Origin: a virus
IMG/VR virus record: IMGVR_UViG_3300042888_001929
Coordinates: 1-40,920 of that record
DNA: 40,920 nt
Reading direction: 5' to 3' (one strand)
The position numbers were made by a program, and so were the translations under genes. The notes under the pieces are model-generated. The model worked only from the letters and a program-made list of their open reading frames with translations. It did no database searches and was not told where the DNA came from. Positions 4,481 to 21,893 of the stretch are shown here, in pieces; position 1 is the stretch's first letter; every line of letters starts with the position of its first letter.

Positions 4481-4554
4481 GCCTCCTTAGCTCAGCTGGC
4501 TAGAGCAACTGATTTGTAATCAGTAGGTCGTTGGTTCGAATCCGACAGGAGGCT
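4481..4554 (+). tRNA. tRNA-Thr(TGT)
   Basis: Acceptor GCCTCCT/AGGAGGC, anticodon arm ACTGA-TTTGTAA-TCAGT, T arm GTTGG-TTCGAAT-CCGAC, discriminator T then CA. Confidence 0.95.
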
Positions 4555-4585
4555 CATTTTTAATTTTAAAATAAACAAAAATTGT

Positions 4586-4693
4586 ATGAAAAAACTAAAA
4601 GAAATTTCGGGAAAAGATGTGATAGTTATTCTTGTATTTATTGCGTGGGTTGTTGGAATGGTTTATATATTATCTAATACAAAAATCGTATAG
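4586..4693 (+). CDS. Small single-span membrane protein
   Basis: Encodes 35 residues: a basic N-terminus MKKLKEISGKD followed by one hydrophobic segment VIVILVFIAWVVGMVYIL. It lies between tRNA-Thr and tRNA-Ala. No family recognised; it is credible because of its clean membrane topology and A-rich start context. Confidence 0.5.
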   Translation: MKKLKEISGKDVIVILVFIAWVVGMVYILSNTKIV

Positions 4694-7182: not shown

Positions 7183-7313
7183 GGTCAGGTGGCGGAATTG
7201 GTAGACGCTATGTGGTAAAGCTAACCACAAACAAAGCTGTGACGGACTCAAAAGTACAATGAGTTGAAATAGAAGATTACGCACGGTTATAGGTTCGAAT
7301 CCTGTCCTGATTA
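7183..7313 (+). ncRNA. tRNA-like element A (131 nt)
   Basis: Acceptor GGTCAGG/CCTGATT (two G-U pairs), Leu-type D arm GTGGCGGAATTGGTAGACGC, T arm ATAGG-TTCGAAT-CCTGT, discriminator A then CA. The core has a TGTGGT-AAAGCTA-ACCACA hairpin where an anticodon arm would be, but the loop lacks U33. About 60 further nt include ACTCA/TGAGT. It is the longest insert close to a real tRNA-Leu shape. Confidence 0.7.
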
Positions 7314-7322
7314 CAAAAAAGA

Positions 7323-7354
7323 TTTGGTGAATTAAAATATTAAACATATCTTTG
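7323..7354 (+). promoter_or_regulatory. Bacteroidota-type promoter
   Basis: TTTG at 7323-7326, 20-nt spacer, TATCTTTG at 7347-7354, 19 nt upstream of the ATG at 7374. Confidence 0.78.
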
Positions 7355-7373
7355 TATTGTTAAAAAAATAGTC

Positions 7374-7682
7374 ATGGAAGATAAAAAATCATTAAATAAA
7401 ATCAAAAGAGAAACGCAATTGTTTTGGCTTGGTGAAAATCGCCTTATCAAATGGTCGGATATTAAGCATTTACAATTAGAAGATGATGATGTAATCAGGT
7501 CATCATGGGAAGAGGACGATGATGACGGACGCGGGCTCTATGTCGGAGAAATCACTAGAATGGTTGAAGAAACTGATGAACAATATCAAAAACGTCTATC
7601 TAATAATGAACTACATAATAAATGGGAAAAAGAAAGACGTTACGAAAGTTATTTAAAACTTAAAAAAGAGTTTGAAGAATAA
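7374..7682 (+). CDS. Hypothetical charged protein
   Basis: A 102-residue protein with an acidic middle (LEDDDVIRSSWEEDDDDGRG) and a helical charged C-terminus ending KLKKEFEE. It has its own promoter, and tRNA-like element B starts 5 nt after its stop, so gene and element share a transcript. No known family. Confidence 0.65.
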   Translation: MEDKKSLNKIKRETQLFWLGENRLIKWSDIKHLQLEDDDVIRSSWEEDDDDGRGLYVGEITRMVEETDEQYQKRLSNNELHNKWEKERRYESYLKLKKEFEE

Positions 7683-7687
7683 AATAT

Positions 7688-7778
7688 AGTCAGGTGGCGA
7701 AATTGGTAGACGCAGTCCTCGGGATAATGTCAAGAGGGTCGCGCCCTCAATTTACAGGTTCGAATCCTGTCCTGGCTA
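7688..7778 (+). ncRNA. tRNA-like element B (91 nt)
   Basis: Acceptor AGTCAGG/CCTGGCT (the one change is a U-G wobble), D arm GCG-AAATTGGTAGA-CGC, T arm ACAGG-TTCGAAT-CCTGT. The core holds a GAGGG-TCGCG-CCCTC variable-arm hairpin but no regular 5-bp/7-nt anticodon arm. It starts 5 nt after the 7374-7682 stop. Confidence 0.72.
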
Positions 7779-7843
7779 CAAAGGCAGATTGTTACTAATT
7801 CATAGCACCTGAAGAAAGTGGGAATGTCATAGAATTAGAATTT

Positions 7844-7933
7844 AGTCAGGTTGCGGAATGTTAATAATTAACTTAGTGCAAGAATTAAGCTAACTAATAG
7901 TGGCGAGGAACCACAACTAAGTTAATTATTAAC
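7844..7933 (+). ncRNA. tRNA-like element C, 5' half fused to a long hairpin
   Basis: AGTCAGGTTGCGGAATG matches the start of the family, but no T arm or 3' acceptor follows. Instead a perfect 17-bp inverted repeat (7860-7876 with 7917-7933; arm GTTAATAATTAACTTAG) encloses 40 nt with a GTGG/CCAC hairpin. It appears to be a degraded or rebuilt copy. Confidence 0.5.
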
Positions 7934-7944
7934 CATAAAAAAAA

Positions 7945-7976
7945 TTTGGCGGATTAAAATATTATACATATCTTTG
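7945..7976 (+). promoter_or_regulatory. Bacteroidota-type promoter for tRNA-like D
   Basis: TTTG at 7945-7948, 20-nt spacer, TATCTTTG at 7969-7976. Element D begins only 14 nt downstream, so the transcript would start with the tRNA-like RNA. Confidence 0.75.
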
Positions 7977-7990
7977 TATTGTTATAAAAT

Positions 7991-8076
7991 AGTCAGGTGG
8001 CGCAAATGGATGACGGTCAAATAGGAGATAATATCAATAGGATGAAAGTATACAGGTTCGAATCCTGTCCTGACTA
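7991..8076 (+). ncRNA. tRNA-like element D (86 nt)
   Basis: Acceptor AGTCAGG/CCTGACT and T arm ACAGG-TTCGAAT-CCTGT are intact. The D region GCGCAAATGGATGACGG pairs poorly. The 35-nt core between the D region and T arm shows no anticodon stem. Element F is identical apart from the first base. Confidence 0.72.
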
Positions 8077-8091
8077 CTAAAATTAAATGTT

Positions 8092-8256
8092 ATGGAAACG
8101 ATTAATATTACAACAGAAGAACTAAAAAAATTAGTTGAAACAGCAATTCAATTTGGGATCGATAGTCCTGAATTAGTCCCAAACCAAAAAGGAAGAGAAA
8201 AAATTGCAAATTGGATGGTAGATAACACCATTAAAGATATAAAAGGACAAAGGTAA
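8092..8256 (+). CDS. Hypothetical 54-residue protein
   Basis: METINITTEELKKLVETAIQ, then FGIDSPELVPNQKGREKIAN and a C-terminal helix. It reads like a small folded helical protein. It sits between tRNA-like elements D (15 nt before) and E (6 nt after). No family recognised. Confidence 0.6.
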   Translation: METINITTEELKKLVETAIQFGIDSPELVPNQKGREKIANWMVDNTIKDIKGQR

Positions 8257-8262
8257 TAAAAT

Positions 8263-8371
8263 AGTCAGGTGGCGGAATTGGTCACCAAAGTAAGCCGTCT
8301 CCAAGCTTTGTGTAAAAGAGATGAATGCCTAATTTGAAAACTACTTACAGGTTCGAATCCTGTCCTGACTA
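8263..8371 (+). ncRNA. tRNA-like element E (109 nt)
   Basis: Acceptor AGTCAGG/CCTGACT and T arm ACAGG-TTCGAAT-CCTGT are intact. The 5' part reads GGTGGCGGAATTGGTCACC. The core contains CAAAG/CTTTG with a 15-nt loop, not a tRNA anticodon arm. It starts 6 nt after the stop of 8092-8256. Confidence 0.7.
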
Positions 8372-8523
8372 CAAAAATATGAAATTGAAAGGATAAATTA
8401 CGTAATAGTCCAATCAATCAAGGGTTAACATCTCAAATGGTATGGATTTAGCGGTCCAAAGAGTATGGCAGGGGTTAACCATCAAAAACTTGGGAACGAC
8501 CGATATGCCTTCATATTTCTTAT
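8372..8523 (+). other. Island between tRNA-like E and F
   Basis: No ORF of useful length. GGTTAAC and GTTAACC segments about 50 nt apart can pair. No known RNA recognised. Confidence 0.3.
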
Positions 8524-8609
8524 GGTCAGGTGGCGCAAATGGATGACGGTCAAATAGGAGATAATATCAATAGGATGAAAGTATACAGGTTCGAATCCTG
8601 TCCTGACTA
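8524..8609 (+). ncRNA. tRNA-like element F (86 nt), near-identical copy of D
   Basis: Acceptor GGTCAGG/CCTGACT (G-U at the first pair). The remaining 85 nt equal element D although they lie 533 nt away, which suggests recent duplication or gene conversion. It lies 27 nt before the next gene. Confidence 0.72.
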
Positions 8610-8636
8610 CAAAATTAATAATTTAAATAAACAAAT

Positions 8637-8975
8637 ATGTTACCAAATTATCATACAAAATTAAATTTTGACGATGTCATAATCGTATCAACTAAAGAAT
8701 TTCCGGGGATATTTTTTCCGGCTAAGATTGAACAAATCGTTGAATGTAATTTTATGGATAAAAATTCCATTAAAGTGGGTCGACCTGTTGGTGTTTACTA
8801 TCAATATAATCTTAGAACCGTTGATTACGAAGATAACCCATTTATTAATTTTCCTAATGTAGACACTAATTTCCTTACTTGGGACGAACTAAATAGTTTT
8901 GACACTTTGGATAGGTGGGTTGAAAATATGGGTTATTTTATGAAAGGTGTGATTAAAATAGAAAAGATTGGATAG
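8637..8975 (+). CDS. Hypothetical protein
   Basis: A 112-residue soluble protein beginning MLPNYHTKLNFDDVIIVSTK with beta-strand-rich composition (FPGIFFPAKIEQIVECNF) and a C-terminal GYFMKGVIKIEKIG. It is flanked by tRNA-like elements F and G. The family is not recognised. Confidence 0.65.
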   Translation: MLPNYHTKLNFDDVIIVSTKEFPGIFFPAKIEQIVECNFMDKNSIKVGRPVGVYYQYNLRTVDYEDNPFINFPNVDTNFLTWDELNSFDTLDRWVENMGYFMKGVIKIEKIG

Positions 8976-9024
8976 AATGAAGTTGGATATTTAGAAAATA
9001 TATTCTCAAAAATCAAATAAAAAT

Positions 9025-9134
9025 AGTCGGGTGGCGGAATTGGTTAGACGCTAAGTGTGGGTTCGTAACCCTTGACCGTCTGGTAACAGATACACAGAGT
9101 AACACTCGTACAGGTTCGAATCCTGTCCTGACTA
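9025..9134 (+). ncRNA. tRNA-like element G (110 nt), CCA encoded
   Basis: Acceptor AGTCGGG/CCTGACT (the change makes a G-U pair), intact D arm GCG...CGC, T arm ACAGG-TTCGAAT-CCTGT, discriminator A and CCA at 9135-9137. In the core, AGTGT/ACACT closes a branched region holding GGG-TTCGTAA-CCC (a 7-nt loop with CGT in anticodon position) and TCTG-GTAA-CAGA. Confidence 0.7.
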
Positions 9135-9137
9135 CCA

Positions 9138-9326
9138 AGTTAACCACACTAAGACTAGAAACGTGGTGACGGATCGGAAAGACGACAAAACTACCACGAT
9201 GCTTCCCGTAAGATCAGCACTATTTTCAGTGGTGATTTCTCCACGTAAACGAATAGCCCAAGGCATAAGTTATGGTGGATTACCAAACCTATCCTTAATG
9301 GACGCATTAAGTGAAGTTTGGGACAT
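9138..9326 (+). ncRNA. Structured island between tRNA-like G and H
   Basis: ACGTGG pairs with CCACGT, CCAAAC with GTTTGG, and CTTAATG-GACG-CATTAAG forms a strong 7-bp hairpin inside the latter. The open frame 9163-9393 crosses these hairpins and element H and is not credible as a gene. Confidence 0.4.
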
Positions 9327-9431
9327 AGTCAGGTGGCGGAATTGGTTAGACGCTAAACCATTAGAGATAAAATGTAGATTCTCAGTAAGGTAATATACTA
9401 CATTATACAGGTTCGATTCCTGTCCTGACTA
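9327..9431 (+). ncRNA. tRNA-like element H (105 nt)
   Basis: Acceptor AGTCAGG/CCTGACT, D arm GCG-GAATTGGTTAGA-CGC, T arm ACAGG-TTCGATT-CCTGT, discriminator A then CA. The core has AATGTAG/CTACATT (7 bp) instead of an anticodon arm. It lies 17 nt before the next gene. Confidence 0.7.
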
Positions 9432-9448
9432 CAAAATAAATAAAAATT

Positions 9449-9706
9449 ATGGAAAGATTAGTGCTTGATTATACTCATTGTTCTGAACCAGAATGTTGGG
9501 AACATAATATTCCTTTTGAATATGAATCAAAAGAGAAATTTATATTTGATGTGATTGAATATCCAATGTTACTTAATTCTCTAATTGAATGTGTATATGA
9601 ATGGATGTTGGATCCGGCTTATGAACATAAGATAGAGTTATTAGAAAATATTGATCAATATATTTTTACATTAGATGAATGGTTTGAAAAAAATAAAAAA
9701 ATATGA
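9449..9706 (+). CDS. Hypothetical acidic protein
   Basis: An 85-residue acidic protein, MERLVLDYTHCSEPECWEHN at the start, helical after residue 25, rich in E, D and aromatics. The start of the next gene overlaps its stop by 4 nt (ATGA), so the two are translationally coupled. No family recognised. Confidence 0.68.
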   Translation: MERLVLDYTHCSEPECWEHNIPFEYESKEKFIFDVIEYPMLLNSLIECVYEWMLDPAYEHKIELLENIDQYIFTLDEWFEKNKKI

Positions 9707-9933
9707 AAGAAATACTTGAAAATAAAGATGTTGGTGATTACGTACATGTTGATGGTTATACATCAATGGCACAACAAAACTTCCGTAAAACATCTATAAT
9801 TGGAGTTGATTATAAATTTGATCCTGATACAGGTGATAAATTTAAAATTCTTCAGATTGATAATGGTGAATGGTTTGATAGCCGGAATGGTGGTTGTTAC
9901 TCAAATGAAAACTCAATGTATTATATTGAATAG
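9703..9933 (+). CDS. Hypothetical small protein
   Basis: A 76-residue protein with KDVGDYVHVDGYTSMAQQNF and a beta-rich C-terminal half (KFKILQIDNGEWFDSRNGGC). It is coupled to the upstream gene by an ATGA overlap and followed 6 nt later by tRNA-like element I. No function recognised. Confidence 0.65.
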   Translation: MKEILENKDVGDYVHVDGYTSMAQQNFRKTSIIGVDYKFDPDTGDKFKILQIDNGEWFDSRNGGCYSNENSMYYIE

Positions 9934-9939
9934 TTATTT

Positions 9940-10081
9940 AGTCAGGTGGCGGAATATAGACGCAGAAGTTAGAAGAGAGGGATTATCAATGTTGGTTAGT
10001 GGATTAATTACCTTGTCTAATGGATTAAATAACACACACCAACTATTATGTGTTATACAGGGTTGTATCCTGTCCTGACTA
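9940..10081 (+). ncRNA. tRNA-like element I (142 nt)
   Basis: Acceptor AGTCAGG/CCTGACT. Short D arm GCG-GAATATAGA-CGC. The T stem ACAGG/CCTGT is kept, but the loop is GTTGTAT, the most divergent T loop of the family. The core holds GTTGG/CCAAC and an 8-bp ATAACACA/TGTGTTAT hairpin. Confidence 0.65.
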
Positions 10082-10139
10082 CACTAATTAAGCTAGTTTA
10101 TGAACAGCCTTTGAGGTGAGATGCTCTCATTAGAATGGA

Positions 10140-10209
10140 AGTCAGGTAACTTAACTGGTAAAGGGGGTTGCGATAGTTTCCGTTACAGGTTCGAATCCTG
10201 TCCTGACTA
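10140..10209 (+). ncRNA. tRNA-like element J (70 nt)
   Basis: The shortest copy. Acceptor AGTCAGG/CCTGACT, type I-like D region ACTTAACTGGTAAAGG, T arm ACAGG-TTCGAAT-CCTGT. The stretch GGGGGTTGCGATAGTTTCC fills the anticodon position but forms only weak G-U-rich pairs. It is the copy closest in size to a normal tRNA. Confidence 0.65.
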
Positions 10210-10211
10210 CA

Positions 10212-10332
10212 AAATTAACTGAGGAACCGAATAAGAAAGTAGGTAATAAGGTGTGGGATAGTTACGAATAACCACGATGGAAATTGGGATTATAACTCAA
10301 GCGTAAATAGGTTATAATTAGTAAGTTAATTT
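10212..10332 (+). ncRNA. Structured island between tRNA-like J and K
   Basis: AAATTAACT near 10213 and AGTTAATTT near 10324 can close the region. Inside are GTGG/CCAC and ATTATAAC/GTTATAAT hairpins. Their loops carry TTACG and CGTAA, which are complementary and could form a kissing interaction. No ORF. Confidence 0.4.
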
Positions 10333-10339
10333 TTTAAAT

Positions 10340-10443
10340 AGTCAGGTGAGCGGAATGGCTATCGCACTGCAAAAACAGTTCTTATTTCGACATAAGATAA
10401 CCAAGTGAAAGGCACTATACAGGTTCGAATCCTGTCCTGACTG
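10340..10443 (+). ncRNA. tRNA-like element K (104 nt)
   Basis: Acceptor AGTCAGG/CCTGACT, D arm GCG-GAATGGCTAT-CGC, T arm ACAGG-TTCGAAT-CCTGT, discriminator G then CA. The core has ACTG-CAAAAA-CAGT (6-nt loop), CTTAT-TTCGAC-ATAAG and AGTG/CACT hairpins. Confidence 0.7.
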
Positions 10444-10453
10444 CAAAATTTTT

Positions 10454-10484
10454 TTTGTTATTTAATATATTTTTTGTATTTTTG
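10454..10484 (+). promoter_or_regulatory. Bacteroidota-type promoter
   Basis: TTTG at 10454-10457, 19-nt spacer, TATTTTTG at 10477-10484, 20 nt upstream of the ATG at 10505. Confidence 0.7.
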
Positions 10485-10504
10485 TATCCTAATCAAAAGA
10501 CAAT

Positions 10505-10726
10505 ATGAAAAGAAAGACTATAAATGTGGATTTAGTGAAAGAAAAGGTTAATAAGTTATTATCTAATCCAAACATTATAATGGAGGAGAAATTGGGTGTA
10601 ATAACAATGATTGAGTATGTATTACATGAAACCAACAATTATAATGGTTTTATGTATTTAACACTTAATAATGGTGAGGCTCCAAAACTTGGTACTGATG
10701 AATGGGTAAGTAGGAAATATTTTTAA
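10505..10726 (+). CDS. Hypothetical protein
   Basis: A 73-residue basic N-terminal and helical protein (MKRKTINVDLVKEKVNKLLS) ending in GTDEWVSRKYF. It has its own promoter and an A-rich start context with no Shine-Dalgarno sequence. No family recognised. Confidence 0.65.
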   Translation: MKRKTINVDLVKEKVNKLLSNPNIIMEEKLGVITMIEYVLHETNNYNGFMYLTLNNGEAPKLGTDEWVSRKYF

Positions 10727-10732
10727 AAAAGA

Positions 10733-10764
10733 TTTGGTGGATTAAAATATTATACATATCTTTG
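10733..10764 (+). promoter_or_regulatory. Bacteroidota-type promoter
   Basis: TTTG at 10733-10736, 20-nt spacer, TATCTTTG at 10757-10764. The surrounding sequence is nearly the same as at 7323-7354 and 7945-7976, a duplicated promoter block. Confidence 0.78.
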
Positions 10765-10784
10765 TATTCCAATAATAAAAAAAG

Positions 10785-11132
10785 ATGGAAAAATTAAGTA
10801 AAAAATATAAGACCTATTCTATAACAATGTACCGTAGAGGTATGGAGTTGGAAGTGATATGTGTAACCACAAGTAAGAAAAAATTTGCCGCGTTATGTGA
10901 TATGCCCATCTCGAATGTTAATAACCATGGTTACTCATATGATTTACGTTATCCAATCTGTAATGAAAATCCAGATAAGTTATACGCAAAACCAGGAATG
11001 GGTGGTGAAATAATGTATATCACAGAAAGAGGTGTGATAAAACCGTTGGAGGACTACATTAAGTTAATTGTCGAACATAGGGAAAAATATAAATCGTATA
11101 AAGATTATTTAGAAAAAACAAATCAAAGATAA
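10785..11132 (+). CDS. Hypothetical protein
   Basis: A 115-residue basic protein. The middle has VTTSKKKFAALCDMPISNVN and NHGYSYDLRYPICNENPDKL. The C-terminal helix is lysine- and tyrosine-rich. A host-type promoter lies 20 nt upstream and tRNA-like element L 7 nt downstream. The KKFAAL-DMPISNVN segment resembles a small helix-turn-helix, but this is weak. Confidence 0.65.
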   Translation: MEKLSKKYKTYSITMYRRGMELEVICVTTSKKKFAALCDMPISNVNNHGYSYDLRYPICNENPDKLYAKPGMGGEIMYITERGVIKPLEDYIKLIVEHREKYKSYKDYLEKTNQR

Positions 11133-11139
11133 AACAAAT

Positions 11140-11229
11140 AGTCAGGTGGTTTAAAGTTGGTTCGACTCCAAGATAGGATATGGTATCGTTGCGATTGGAA
11201 ATTTACAGGTTCGAATCCTGTCCTGACTA
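11140..11229 (+). ncRNA. tRNA-like element L (90 nt)
   Basis: Acceptor AGTCAGG/CCTGACT and T arm ACAGG-TTCGAAT-CCTGT. The D arm is lost (TGGTTTAAAGTTGG). The core TCCAA/TTGGA closes a 23-nt loop that contains GATA-TGG-TATC. It follows the upstream gene by 7 nt. Confidence 0.68.
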
Positions 11230-11359
11230 CTGACACGCACGGCAGCCGAAATGTAAAAGCGCTCAATGATTAGGCAATGCGAACGAACACACGGTCTACC
11301 TCACAGTGCGTAGGTAAGCTTCAAGGATCGTTGACAGCTCGGAATAGACGAGCAAATTT
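11230..11359 (+). ncRNA. Structured island with a possible pseudoknot
   Basis: ACGCAC (11235-11240) can pair with GTGCGT (11306-11311), which lies in the loop of the TACCT/AGGTA hairpin (11297-11301 with 11312-11316), so the two helices cross. A GCTCG-GAATAGA-CGAGC hairpin lies near the 3' end. It is G+C-rich for this genome and has no ORF. Confidence 0.4.
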
Positions 11360-11501
11360 AGTCAGGTGGCGGAATTGGTTAGACTCGCTAATATAGGTAT
11401 CGAAAGATAGACGATTCTACTCCGCAGGGTCATATTAGTCTATCCTAAAGTGATATGAGTAGACGCAATAGGAGTTACAGGTTCGAATCCTGTCCTGACT
11501 A
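11360..11501 (+). ncRNA. tRNA-like element M (142 nt)
   Basis: Acceptor AGTCAGG/CCTGACT, T arm ACAGG-TTCGAAT-CCTGT. The core is elaborate: CTAATAT/ATATTAG (7 bp) encloses TATC-GAAA-GATA with a GNRA tetraloop, followed by a GTCTATC...TAGAC hairpin. This is a folded insert rather than random decay. Confidence 0.68.
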
Positions 11502-11590
11502 CAAAAGTGTTGAGTTCAAATCCCAGTAGGGAAGTTTATAAAGTATCTAAATAATAATTTAATTTAAAAACAAAAAAATAACTTACGAAG

Positions 11591-11839
11591 ATGAAAAGTT
11601 CAAGTAGTATCATTAATAGACAAAAAGAAATAGATAAGTTAAGAACAGAGTTGGAAACAATTTTAGCTAAAACTAAACACTTATCTAAAGGTGAAATAGG
11701 AACAAAAGGATATAATAAGGTTATAGACGAATTGAAAAATAAAATATTAGAACTTGAACAGAGAACTAAATTAGATAGGATTAAAATTGGTGAAGGTGTG
11801 GATGATTTAAGTGATAATAGATTTAAAAGATATAAATGA
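11591..11839 (+). CDS. Hypothetical coiled-coil protein
   Basis: An 82-residue protein with heptad-like KEIDKLRTELETILAKTKHL and IDELKNKILELEQRTKL segments, so probably an antiparallel coiled coil. It is flanked by tRNA-like elements M and N. No function recognised. Confidence 0.62.
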   Translation: MKSSSSIINRQKEIDKLRTELETILAKTKHLSKGEIGTKGYNKVIDELKNKILELEQRTKLDRIKIGEGVDDLSDNRFKRYK

Positions 11840-11912
11840 TATTACTTCTACCGTTTTGCAGCTACCAGAAGGGCGGGATTTAGAACGATAAACTTTAAAT
11901 AAAAATAAAATT

Positions 11913-12095
11913 ATGGAAAATAAATGTTATCAAGCAACTAATGAAGATTTACGTGAATCAGATTTAGAACATTACGAAAAATTATCAACAGAATGTCATC
12001 ATTGGTCGAGTGGTATTCCAAGAGCAATAAACTTTTACTATGATTATAAGAGTATGAGTATATGGGAAAAGATAAAATTAGCATTTAAGAAATAG
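11913..12095 (+). CDS. Hypothetical small protein ending in a tRNA-like element
   Basis: 60 residues, MENKCYQATNEDLRESDLEH, with an amphipathic IWEKIKLAFKK C-terminus. Its stop codon TAG (12093-12095) shares two bases with the first acceptor bases of tRNA-like element N. Cleavage at the element's 5' end would therefore remove the stop's last two bases. Confidence 0.62.
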   Translation: MENKCYQATNEDLRESDLEHYEKLSTECHHWSSGIPRAINFYYDYKSMSIWEKIKLAFKK

Positions 12096-12207
12096 TCAGG
12101 TGGCAGAATGGTAGATGCATGATGATAAAGTAGGGTTCGGATGTACTCGGAGGAAATTGATTCAGTTAGGTGTACAACTAATACAGGTTCGAATCCTGTC
12201 CTGATTA
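12094..12207 (+). ncRNA. tRNA-like element N (114 nt)
   Basis: Acceptor AGTCAGG/CCTGATT (G-U wobble), D arm GCA-GAATGGTAGA-TGC, T arm ACAGG-TTCGAAT-CCTGT, discriminator A then CA. The core has AGTT/AACT and no anticodon arm. It overlaps the stop codon of the preceding gene. Confidence 0.7.
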
Positions 12208-12530
12208 CAAATCTCAGGAGTAATTAATCTGAGACTGAGTGATTCGAAACACTCGATTGATTATGGTGTAATGGCGCACAACACCCCCCGCTGAAGTTCG
12301 AGTCTTCAGATTAGGTACGGTAACCAGGGGAGTAAGATTAAGGTTCGAATCCTTTTTAATCGGCAATTGGTAGTAAAATGCGTAGGTTGATAAGCGTGGA
12401 GAGACGTGACGCAAGGGTACACACTAAGGATAGGTAGTAATACCCAACTCTCTAATGGTGTGTGAAGCTGGGCCCAAACTTATGGTCGCTAGGCGGGATT
12501 CTTGATAAAGTCAACCACTACCTTTTACAT
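12208..12530 (+). other. 323-nt island with tRNA-like T-arm remnants
   Basis: No credible ORF. CTCAG/CTGAG is followed by three T-arm-like hairpins: GAGTG-ATTCGAAA-CACTC, CTGAAG-TTCGAGT-CTTCAG, and AAGG-TTCGAAT-CCTT with TAATC after it. GATTA upstream can pair with TAATC to make a poor acceptor stem. It looks like decayed tRNA genes or more divergent tRNA-like elements. Confidence 0.4.
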
Positions 12531-21496: not shown

Positions 21497-21505
21497 TGTT
21501 AAATG

Positions 21506-21893
21506 TGGAGTAGCGCGGATTCGAACCGCGGTCTTCCCTACTCAATAATAAATGACTACACGTTTAGGATAATGTTTGCTAACATTCCAAAATTCACAAT
21601 TCCCTTATTTTTAAAGTGGTTCGGTTTACTGAGAACTAATCCTCCACTTGTTTCTTTTAGGATAGAAACCACACCCTATAGAGATTTATGTTCCAAGGTT
21701 AATATCTCCCCGACCTGAATATAGTTTTGCTTACGCTACTTCTACAAGCTCATCTTGTTTTACAAGACCTAATAGAGCCATTTTGTTTAACACGTTGCCG
21801 TATAATTGTTATTACCATAGATTTAAGTGATAGGAAACATCTCACTACGTGCCACCGATTACAGACATATGAAATCAATTGCCTTTCTACCCC
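21506..21893 (-). ncRNA. ssrA: tmRNA (transfer-messenger RNA)
   Basis: Read on the minus strand. Acceptor GGGGTAG (5' end, 21893-21887) pairs with CTACTCC (21513-21507), discriminator A. The T arm is GCGG-TTCGAAT-CCGC, preceded by CTAAACGTGTAGT, which matches the conserved CUAAGCAUGUAG of tmRNAs. Near the 5' side, CACGTAGTGAG and CACTTAAATCT match Bacteroides tmRNA as I know it. An internal reading frame at 21799-21731 starts GGC (aligned with the Bacteroides resume codon) and ends ...DELVEVA then TAA, giving a 22-residue tag. It would rescue stalled ribosomes and tag the nascent chain for proteolysis. Encoded length is 388 nt. Confidence 0.9.
21731..21799 (-). other. tmRNA proteolysis-tag reading frame
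   Basis: 22 sense codons from GGC to TAA: begins GNVLNKMALL and ends KQDELVEVA. The hydrophobic C-terminal VA replaces the usual LAA. If translation instead resumes at the internal GCT the tag is ALLGL...VEVA (15 residues); alignment with Bacteroides favours GGC. Confidence 0.75.

Follow-up and report, generated by a model that had tools for sequence, protein, structure and literature searches.

A tRNA-like shell around variable cores in phage tRNA arrays, probably a scaffold for exchangeable RNA payloads

The window analysed here is the whole 40,920-base record of an uncultured virus (IMGVR_UViG_3300042888_001929), which encodes a T4-type terminase, a portal and a prohead protease and which carries, on the plus strand between positions 7183 and 12207, 13 transfer RNA (tRNA)-like copies and one 5' half-copy, C. 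An earlier note on this DNA had described 13 copies of 70 to 142 nucleotides (nt) with a fixed acceptor and T arm, and all of them were confirmed in place on that strand. Judging from the way in which their parts are conserved, we consider it probable (about 0.6) that these copies, and several hundred relatives in other phages, are small, structured RNAs enclosed by a tRNA shell, in which the shell would serve maturation and stability and the core would be an exchangeable payload.

The constant tRNA-like shell

The shell consists of an AGTCAGG/CCTGACT acceptor, an ACAGG-TTCGAAT-CCTGT T arm and usually a D arm of the tRNA-Leu type. In the window, every one of the 13 copies begins with AGTCAGG or a one-base variant and has its T arm joined to a 3' CCTGACT or a one-base variant. 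Rfam detects the shell only, and as a weak tRNA, with 27-42 bits for most of these copies compared with 48-72 for the 24 ordinary tRNAs of the window. Using the exact 26-base 3' end as a query, we matched at least 120 viral stretches, nearly all of which had the partner 5' half (almost always AGTCAGG with a tRNA-Leu-type D arm), a total length of about 55-170 nt and unrelated cores. The pattern is far beyond chance. After two more viral scans the collection spanned 318 loci and contained 594 copies (544 distinct), and with two core-directed scans added it reached 700 copies, about 590 of them distinct. The tRNA-Leu-type D arm is present in 434 of the 544.

The loci carrying the shell (given below with L numbers) are mostly uncultured phage contigs. 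Among prokaryote genomes totalling 257 Gb there were only 12 matching stretches, all in metagenome bins, and the exact ends gave a significant match in none of 50,697 deposited phage records. One member, with its acceptor fully re-paired to AGTTAAG/CTTAACT, lies in a 735-kb metagenomic huge phage (LR756501; L399 about 1420-1530). Whole records contain between 1 and 13 copies, and in loci with at least two they lie on one strand in 166 cases out of 166. The family is found with T4-type and with Terminase_3-type terminases and is therefore not confined to one phage lineage; the window's own terminase shares about 26% identity with the one from Flavobacterium phage immuto. No dominant neighbour emerged among the neighbouring gene clusters that would indicate a linked protein gene. 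In L074 and L308, which belong to phages with a Terminase_3-type terminase, copies directly precede the terminase genes.

The T-loop motif is required by our copy finder, and searches by the 5' side alone and by the core alone support it independently. With the 5' 26-mer as the only query, a partner T arm and a pairing acceptor strand were found in 135 of 149 places, whereas 174 of 4000 random windows passed the same test; at least ten of the 14 misses have a slightly changed T arm and two clearly lack one. This supports the proposal of the earlier note that the acceptor/T-arm half is retained, here together with the D arm, and that the decoding half has been exchanged. The shell has the canonical features of a tRNA, namely a 7-bp acceptor stem, a T arm with a TTCRA loop, T8 and a D arm, and among Leu-type copies whose D loop is of normal size, conservation of U8, A14A15, G18G19 and the D stem is 96-100%. 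At the ends, C74 is encoded and CCA is not in 98% of copies, as in 98% of ordinary tRNAs of the same loci, and U-1 is present in 81% of copies compared with 67% of those tRNAs; CCA is encoded in only 2.4% of copies, and there is no sign of reverse transcription of a mature RNA. Regarding the ordinary phage tRNAs, C74 encoded without CCA may be a signal for 3' processing in the hosts concerned. The acceptor is near-fixed in the family, whereas ordinary tRNA-Leu genes of the same loci have 49 acceptors in 66 genes, and where the family's acceptor does change, a pair-restoring change is often found on the opposite strand.

Variable cores and their exchange

The 544 distinct copies fall into 339 core families, 236 of which occur once, and the Chao1 estimate from this sample is approximately 817. 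The earlier note had held that the region in place of the anticodon arm differs in each copy of the window; the cores are indeed diverse, but those of copies D and F are identical. Its further claim that no copy has a normal anticodon arm holds at scale, as a 5-bp/7-nt arm with U33 occurs in 4 of 336 copies, where shuffled cores give 1.9 and real tRNA-Leu give 32 of 36. The exception lies in other contigs, L038 and L195, where the same shell carries a normal tRNA-Lys(UUU) anticodon arm with a compensated stem. A role as decoys for host anticodon nucleases, one of the earlier suggestions, is unlikely because the copies have no anticodon arm, and we rejected it in that form.

To assess the structure of the cores, we predicted a fold from one member of a family and checked it on the most divergent relative, in 95 families and with 200 permutations. 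Compensated double changes in core stems numbered 45 against an expected 11.7±2.8 (permutation maximum 20), and broken core pairs 99 against an expected 165±8 (permutation minimum 139), with clear examples of compensation in L017/L039, L039/L103/L258 and L010/L055. In the alignment of one core family (fam3), ten core pairs are intact in 100% of sequences and two pairs have changed on both sides. A search with the fam3 core alone found the T arm in 41 of 41 places and the acceptor/D-arm half wherever the 5' side was complete; in some of these places the pairing of the acceptor (AGTGGTA/TGCCGCT) or of the T stem is restored with other bases. A core-only model recovered a divergent paralogue, which is likewise inside the shell. 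Cores outside the shell were almost never found, the clearest repeated exception being a separate spacer RNA included in a mis-called copy. Another core family (fam1) was compared with type III antitoxin RNAs of the ToxI kind; an H-type pseudoknot can be drawn for it in which 99.5% of pairs hold, but with its low covariation the family varies too little to prove this fold, and it has no Rfam match. Read from these comparisons, the core structure is under selection and the copies are not decaying tRNAs.

The cores also move between phages. For core pairs that are 90-97% alike and come from different loci, both flanks are unrelated in 247 of 266 cases, compared with 118 of 218 for ordinary tRNAs, and in the surroundings of such pairs sequence identity is no higher than random as far as the mature RNA ends. 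Homologous recombination in the constant shell would account simply for most of this exchange. Sharp-ended exchange is also seen in members that lack the Leu-type D arm, which have only about 7 bases of common 5' stretch, and here movement of the whole gene seems to be needed. In addition, the same D-loop insert may sit beside unlike cores, for example in L306/L123, L264/L065 and L120/L059. Of the ideas put forward in the earlier note, scaffolds presenting variable inserts is the best, and it is strengthened by the exchange of cores and by these D-loop modules.

We propose that the acceptor stem, T arm, elbow and usually D arm are retained so that tRNA enzymes may excise the RNA from the transcript of the phage tRNA array, by RNase P and RNase Z followed by CCA addition, and that the tRNA-like top would protect and stabilise the product. 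The folded core would substitute for the anticodon and variable arms as the functional payload, and the exchange of cores, and sometimes of D-loop inserts, between phages would proceed by recombination within the constant shell or at either end of it. High core diversity, multi-copy sets and rapid exchange suggest, by analogy with the pseudo-ToxI RNA of phage PhiTE, that the payloads might function in trans when phages are in conflict with hosts or with one another, each on a different target, a reading that we put at well short of even odds. Similarly tentative is the idea that uncultured phages have in common a library of RNA payloads, many hundreds in number, in one standard tRNA shell, exchanged in a cassette-like manner and acting as trans effectors against host or competitor functions; if true, it would be an RNA counterpart to gene-cassette arsenals.

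Several results weigh against these proposals. The single-sequence fold scores of the window copies are modest (z of -0.34 to -1.9), and in the search sample only copies E and N have core homologues elsewhere, a near-identical contig aside. The test for the RNA strand is weak, with 643 G-U against 511 A-C changes, which is in the right direction although the changes are non-independent. No antisense to the phages' own loci was seen in neighbouring DNA of up to 15 kb, where complementary 10-13-base k-mers occur about as often as expected and 14-16-base ones less often than in other loci. Mimicry of host RNA was tried for two core families with models that recover known members, and in either case 297 Bacteroidota genomes gave no match, which is weak negative evidence given that few candidates were scored per genome. 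Neither approach yielded a payload target.

Alternative explanations

The copies could instead be translation-related molecules, charged by an anticodon-blind synthetase of the LeuRS, SerRS or AlaRS type and serving as amino-acid donors, EF-Tu ligands or ribosome ligands, with a core that only spaces or tunes them. The predominance of the tRNA-Leu-type D arm and the retained elbow are in its favour, as is the fact that the leucyl- and seryl-tRNA synthetases of Escherichia coli do not read the anticodon. On the other hand, A73 is found in only 81% of the family (G in 14%) compared with 66 of 66 ordinary tRNA-Leu of the same loci, so that leucine charging is probably not the family's shared purpose. 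Many cores replace the D arm as well, and spacing does not need specific conserved core folds. We regard this explanation as unlikely.

Similarly unlikely is a role as processing punctuation, in which the tRNA-like elements would be cut sites between the small open reading frames of a long transcript and the core would have no role of its own. The copies do alternate on one strand with small open reading frames and tRNAs, and they share the end signals of tRNAs, so the suggestion of processing signals in the earlier note is consistent with the data as far as the ends are concerned. As a sole role it fails to explain why cores are conserved, with compensating changes, in contigs whose neighbouring sequence is unrelated, since a cut site needs no such cores, and hundreds of distinct selected ones would be superfluous.

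A third explanation treats the copies as DNA elements, i.e., recombination sites or cassettes with conserved pairing ends and a variable centre. Integron attC sites have a similar length range, conserved ends and a variable centre, and the boundaries of exchange match the ends of the elements. Features that make sense only in a tRNA are nevertheless retained (U8, A14, G18G19, the T loop, C74 and U-1), and ordinary tRNAs also show sharp-ended movement. No linked recombinase or integrase stood out in the neighbouring gene clusters, in which no dedicated integrase search was made. We judge this explanation to be quite improbable.

It is very improbable that the copies are tRNA pseudogenes in decay or what is left of tRNA genes that insertions have disrupted. 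Copies C and I of the window are degraded, and elsewhere a minority of T arms (59) have no 5' partner, but under the strict partner test both halves are kept together, the core stems are compensated and the shell is near-fixed while the acceptors of ordinary tRNAs vary. The random decay of both halves in related phages, by which the earlier note would have recognised pseudogenes, was clearly not seen. Least credible of all are intron-bearing tRNAs from which the core is spliced to restore an anticodon arm, for while the cores do resemble inserts at the anticodon-arm position, many copies are shorter than an ordinary tRNA-Leu (down to 54 nt), no common catalytic core was seen and the junction cannot rebuild an anticodon arm.

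The window array, its companions and known systems

In the window, the copies are interspersed with small open reading frames and further non-coding stretches. The first is copy A (7183-7313, 131 nt), with the acceptor GGTCAGG/CCTGATT, followed by copy B (7688-7778, 91 nt; acceptor AGTCAGG/CCTGGCT), which has no 5-bp/7-nt anticodon arm and is called tRNA-Ser by ARAGORN; with copy B included, this program gives 25 tRNA genes in the window as compared with 24 by Rfam. Half-copy C (7844-7932) has an acceptor strand and a partial D arm and no T arm, and a long inverted repeat (GTTAATAATTAACTTAGT / ACTAAGTTAATTATTAAC) occupies the expected place of the core and T arm. The duplicated core mentioned above is that of copies D (7991-8076) and F (8524-8609), both of 86 nt, and the predicted fold of D on its own is weak. 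Core homologues on other contigs are known for copy E (8263-8371, 109 nt; L311 and L211) and for copy N (12094-12207, 114 nt, acceptor AGTCAGG/CCTGATT; L316). Copy G (9025-9134, 110 nt) has the acceptor strand AGTCGGG and several hairpins predicted in its core, copy H (9327-9431) is 105 nt long, and copy I (9940-10081, 142 nt) has a T loop altered to GTTGTAT on an intact T stem. Copy J (10140-10209) is the shortest at 70 nt and has a non-Leu D region, copy K (10340-10443, 104 nt) has G73, and copy L (11140-11229, 90 nt) has a second T-arm-like sequence in place of the D region; copy M (11360-11501) is 142 nt long. A further tRNA-like stretch at about 12259-12361 has the acceptor GATTA.../...TAATC and no clear anticodon arm.

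Other RNAs lie in the same arrays. After copy L, positions 11231-11330 of the window hold a second conserved RNA (TGACACGCACGGC...GTGCGTAGGTAAG) without an Rfam match, which has homologues of 77-84% identity among the tRNA-likes of L009, L042, L053, L075, L253, L324 and L302. GOLLD RNA (RF02032) is present in L126 (153-560, minus strand, 306 bits) and as a cut-off 69-bit match in L120 (5497-5635), in both cases as a separate RNA, and its model does not match the tRNA-like copies. L120 also has, separate from its copies, a YrlA-like RNA at 4495-4593 (40 bits against 69, below threshold), a permuted tRNA mimic in which the T arm precedes the D arm and an outer stem encloses both; the YrlA covariance model (RF02553) had no match among the window copies. 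Because some contain GOLLD and a Y-RNA-like gene, the arrays seem to collect non-coding RNAs. A candidate HDV-like ribozyme lies between tRNA-like genes in L330 (3253-3319; 33 bits, below threshold). A common leader hairpin (GGAAWAGA) upstream of the copies was found in 3 of 588, equal to the reversed control.

As the earlier note had surmised, no described RNA family matched in the Rfam scans or in the open-access literature of PubMed Central, a scope outside which preprints and most subscription papers fall, and we provisionally regard the family as undescribed. The nearest natural tRNA mimics, namely transfer-messenger RNA (tmRNA), Y RNAs and tRNA-Other, differ from it in anatomy. Y RNAs of the YrlA type are likewise non-coding RNAs that mimic tRNA. 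Y RNAs combine a permuted tRNA-like module with a Ro60-binding stem, whereas the family has the normal tRNA order, an acceptor stem and a T arm. The likeness to tmRNA lies in a tRNA-like top attached to non-tRNA sequence, but the copies have no common reading frame or pseudoknot ring, and their acceptor, with a consensus 3-70 pair of T-A, is without the G3-U70 alanine signal; neither Rfam nor ARAGORN called a tmRNA in the array, and the phage's tmRNA is a separate gene (21503-21893, minus strand). The tRNA-Other of Bacillus cereus is a tRNA-like element outside translation (PMC3399842), but it is one chromosomal gene inside a larger RNA and has no exchangeable cores.

Among phage RNAs, pseudo-ToxI of phage PhiTE is a structured RNA directed against a host defence, and it evolves through expansion and recombination (PMC3475682). 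It consists of tandem repeats without a tRNA shell, and scanning the window and nine loci with Rfam gave no match between ToxI and the cores. GOLLD and ROOL RNAs (PMC12286853) and theta ribozymes (PMC10879173) are phage non-coding RNAs in or beside tRNA arrays, but they have other folds and no tRNA shell with a variable core. Nearest in concept is the tRNA scaffold for recombinant RNA expression, in which a tRNA shell provides for the processing and protection of an inserted payload RNA (PMC3753655 and preceding studies); that scaffold is man-made, whereas the family described here is natural, phage-borne and equipped with hundreds of selected cores. If our interpretation is correct, this laboratory trick has also evolved naturally, and it allows phages to transport structured RNAs and to exchange them with one another. 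Gene callers would then be overlooking a large class of phage RNA genes, or listing its members as unusual tRNAs, and hundreds of structured RNAs of natural origin would become available, among which there may be new means of blocking host defences.

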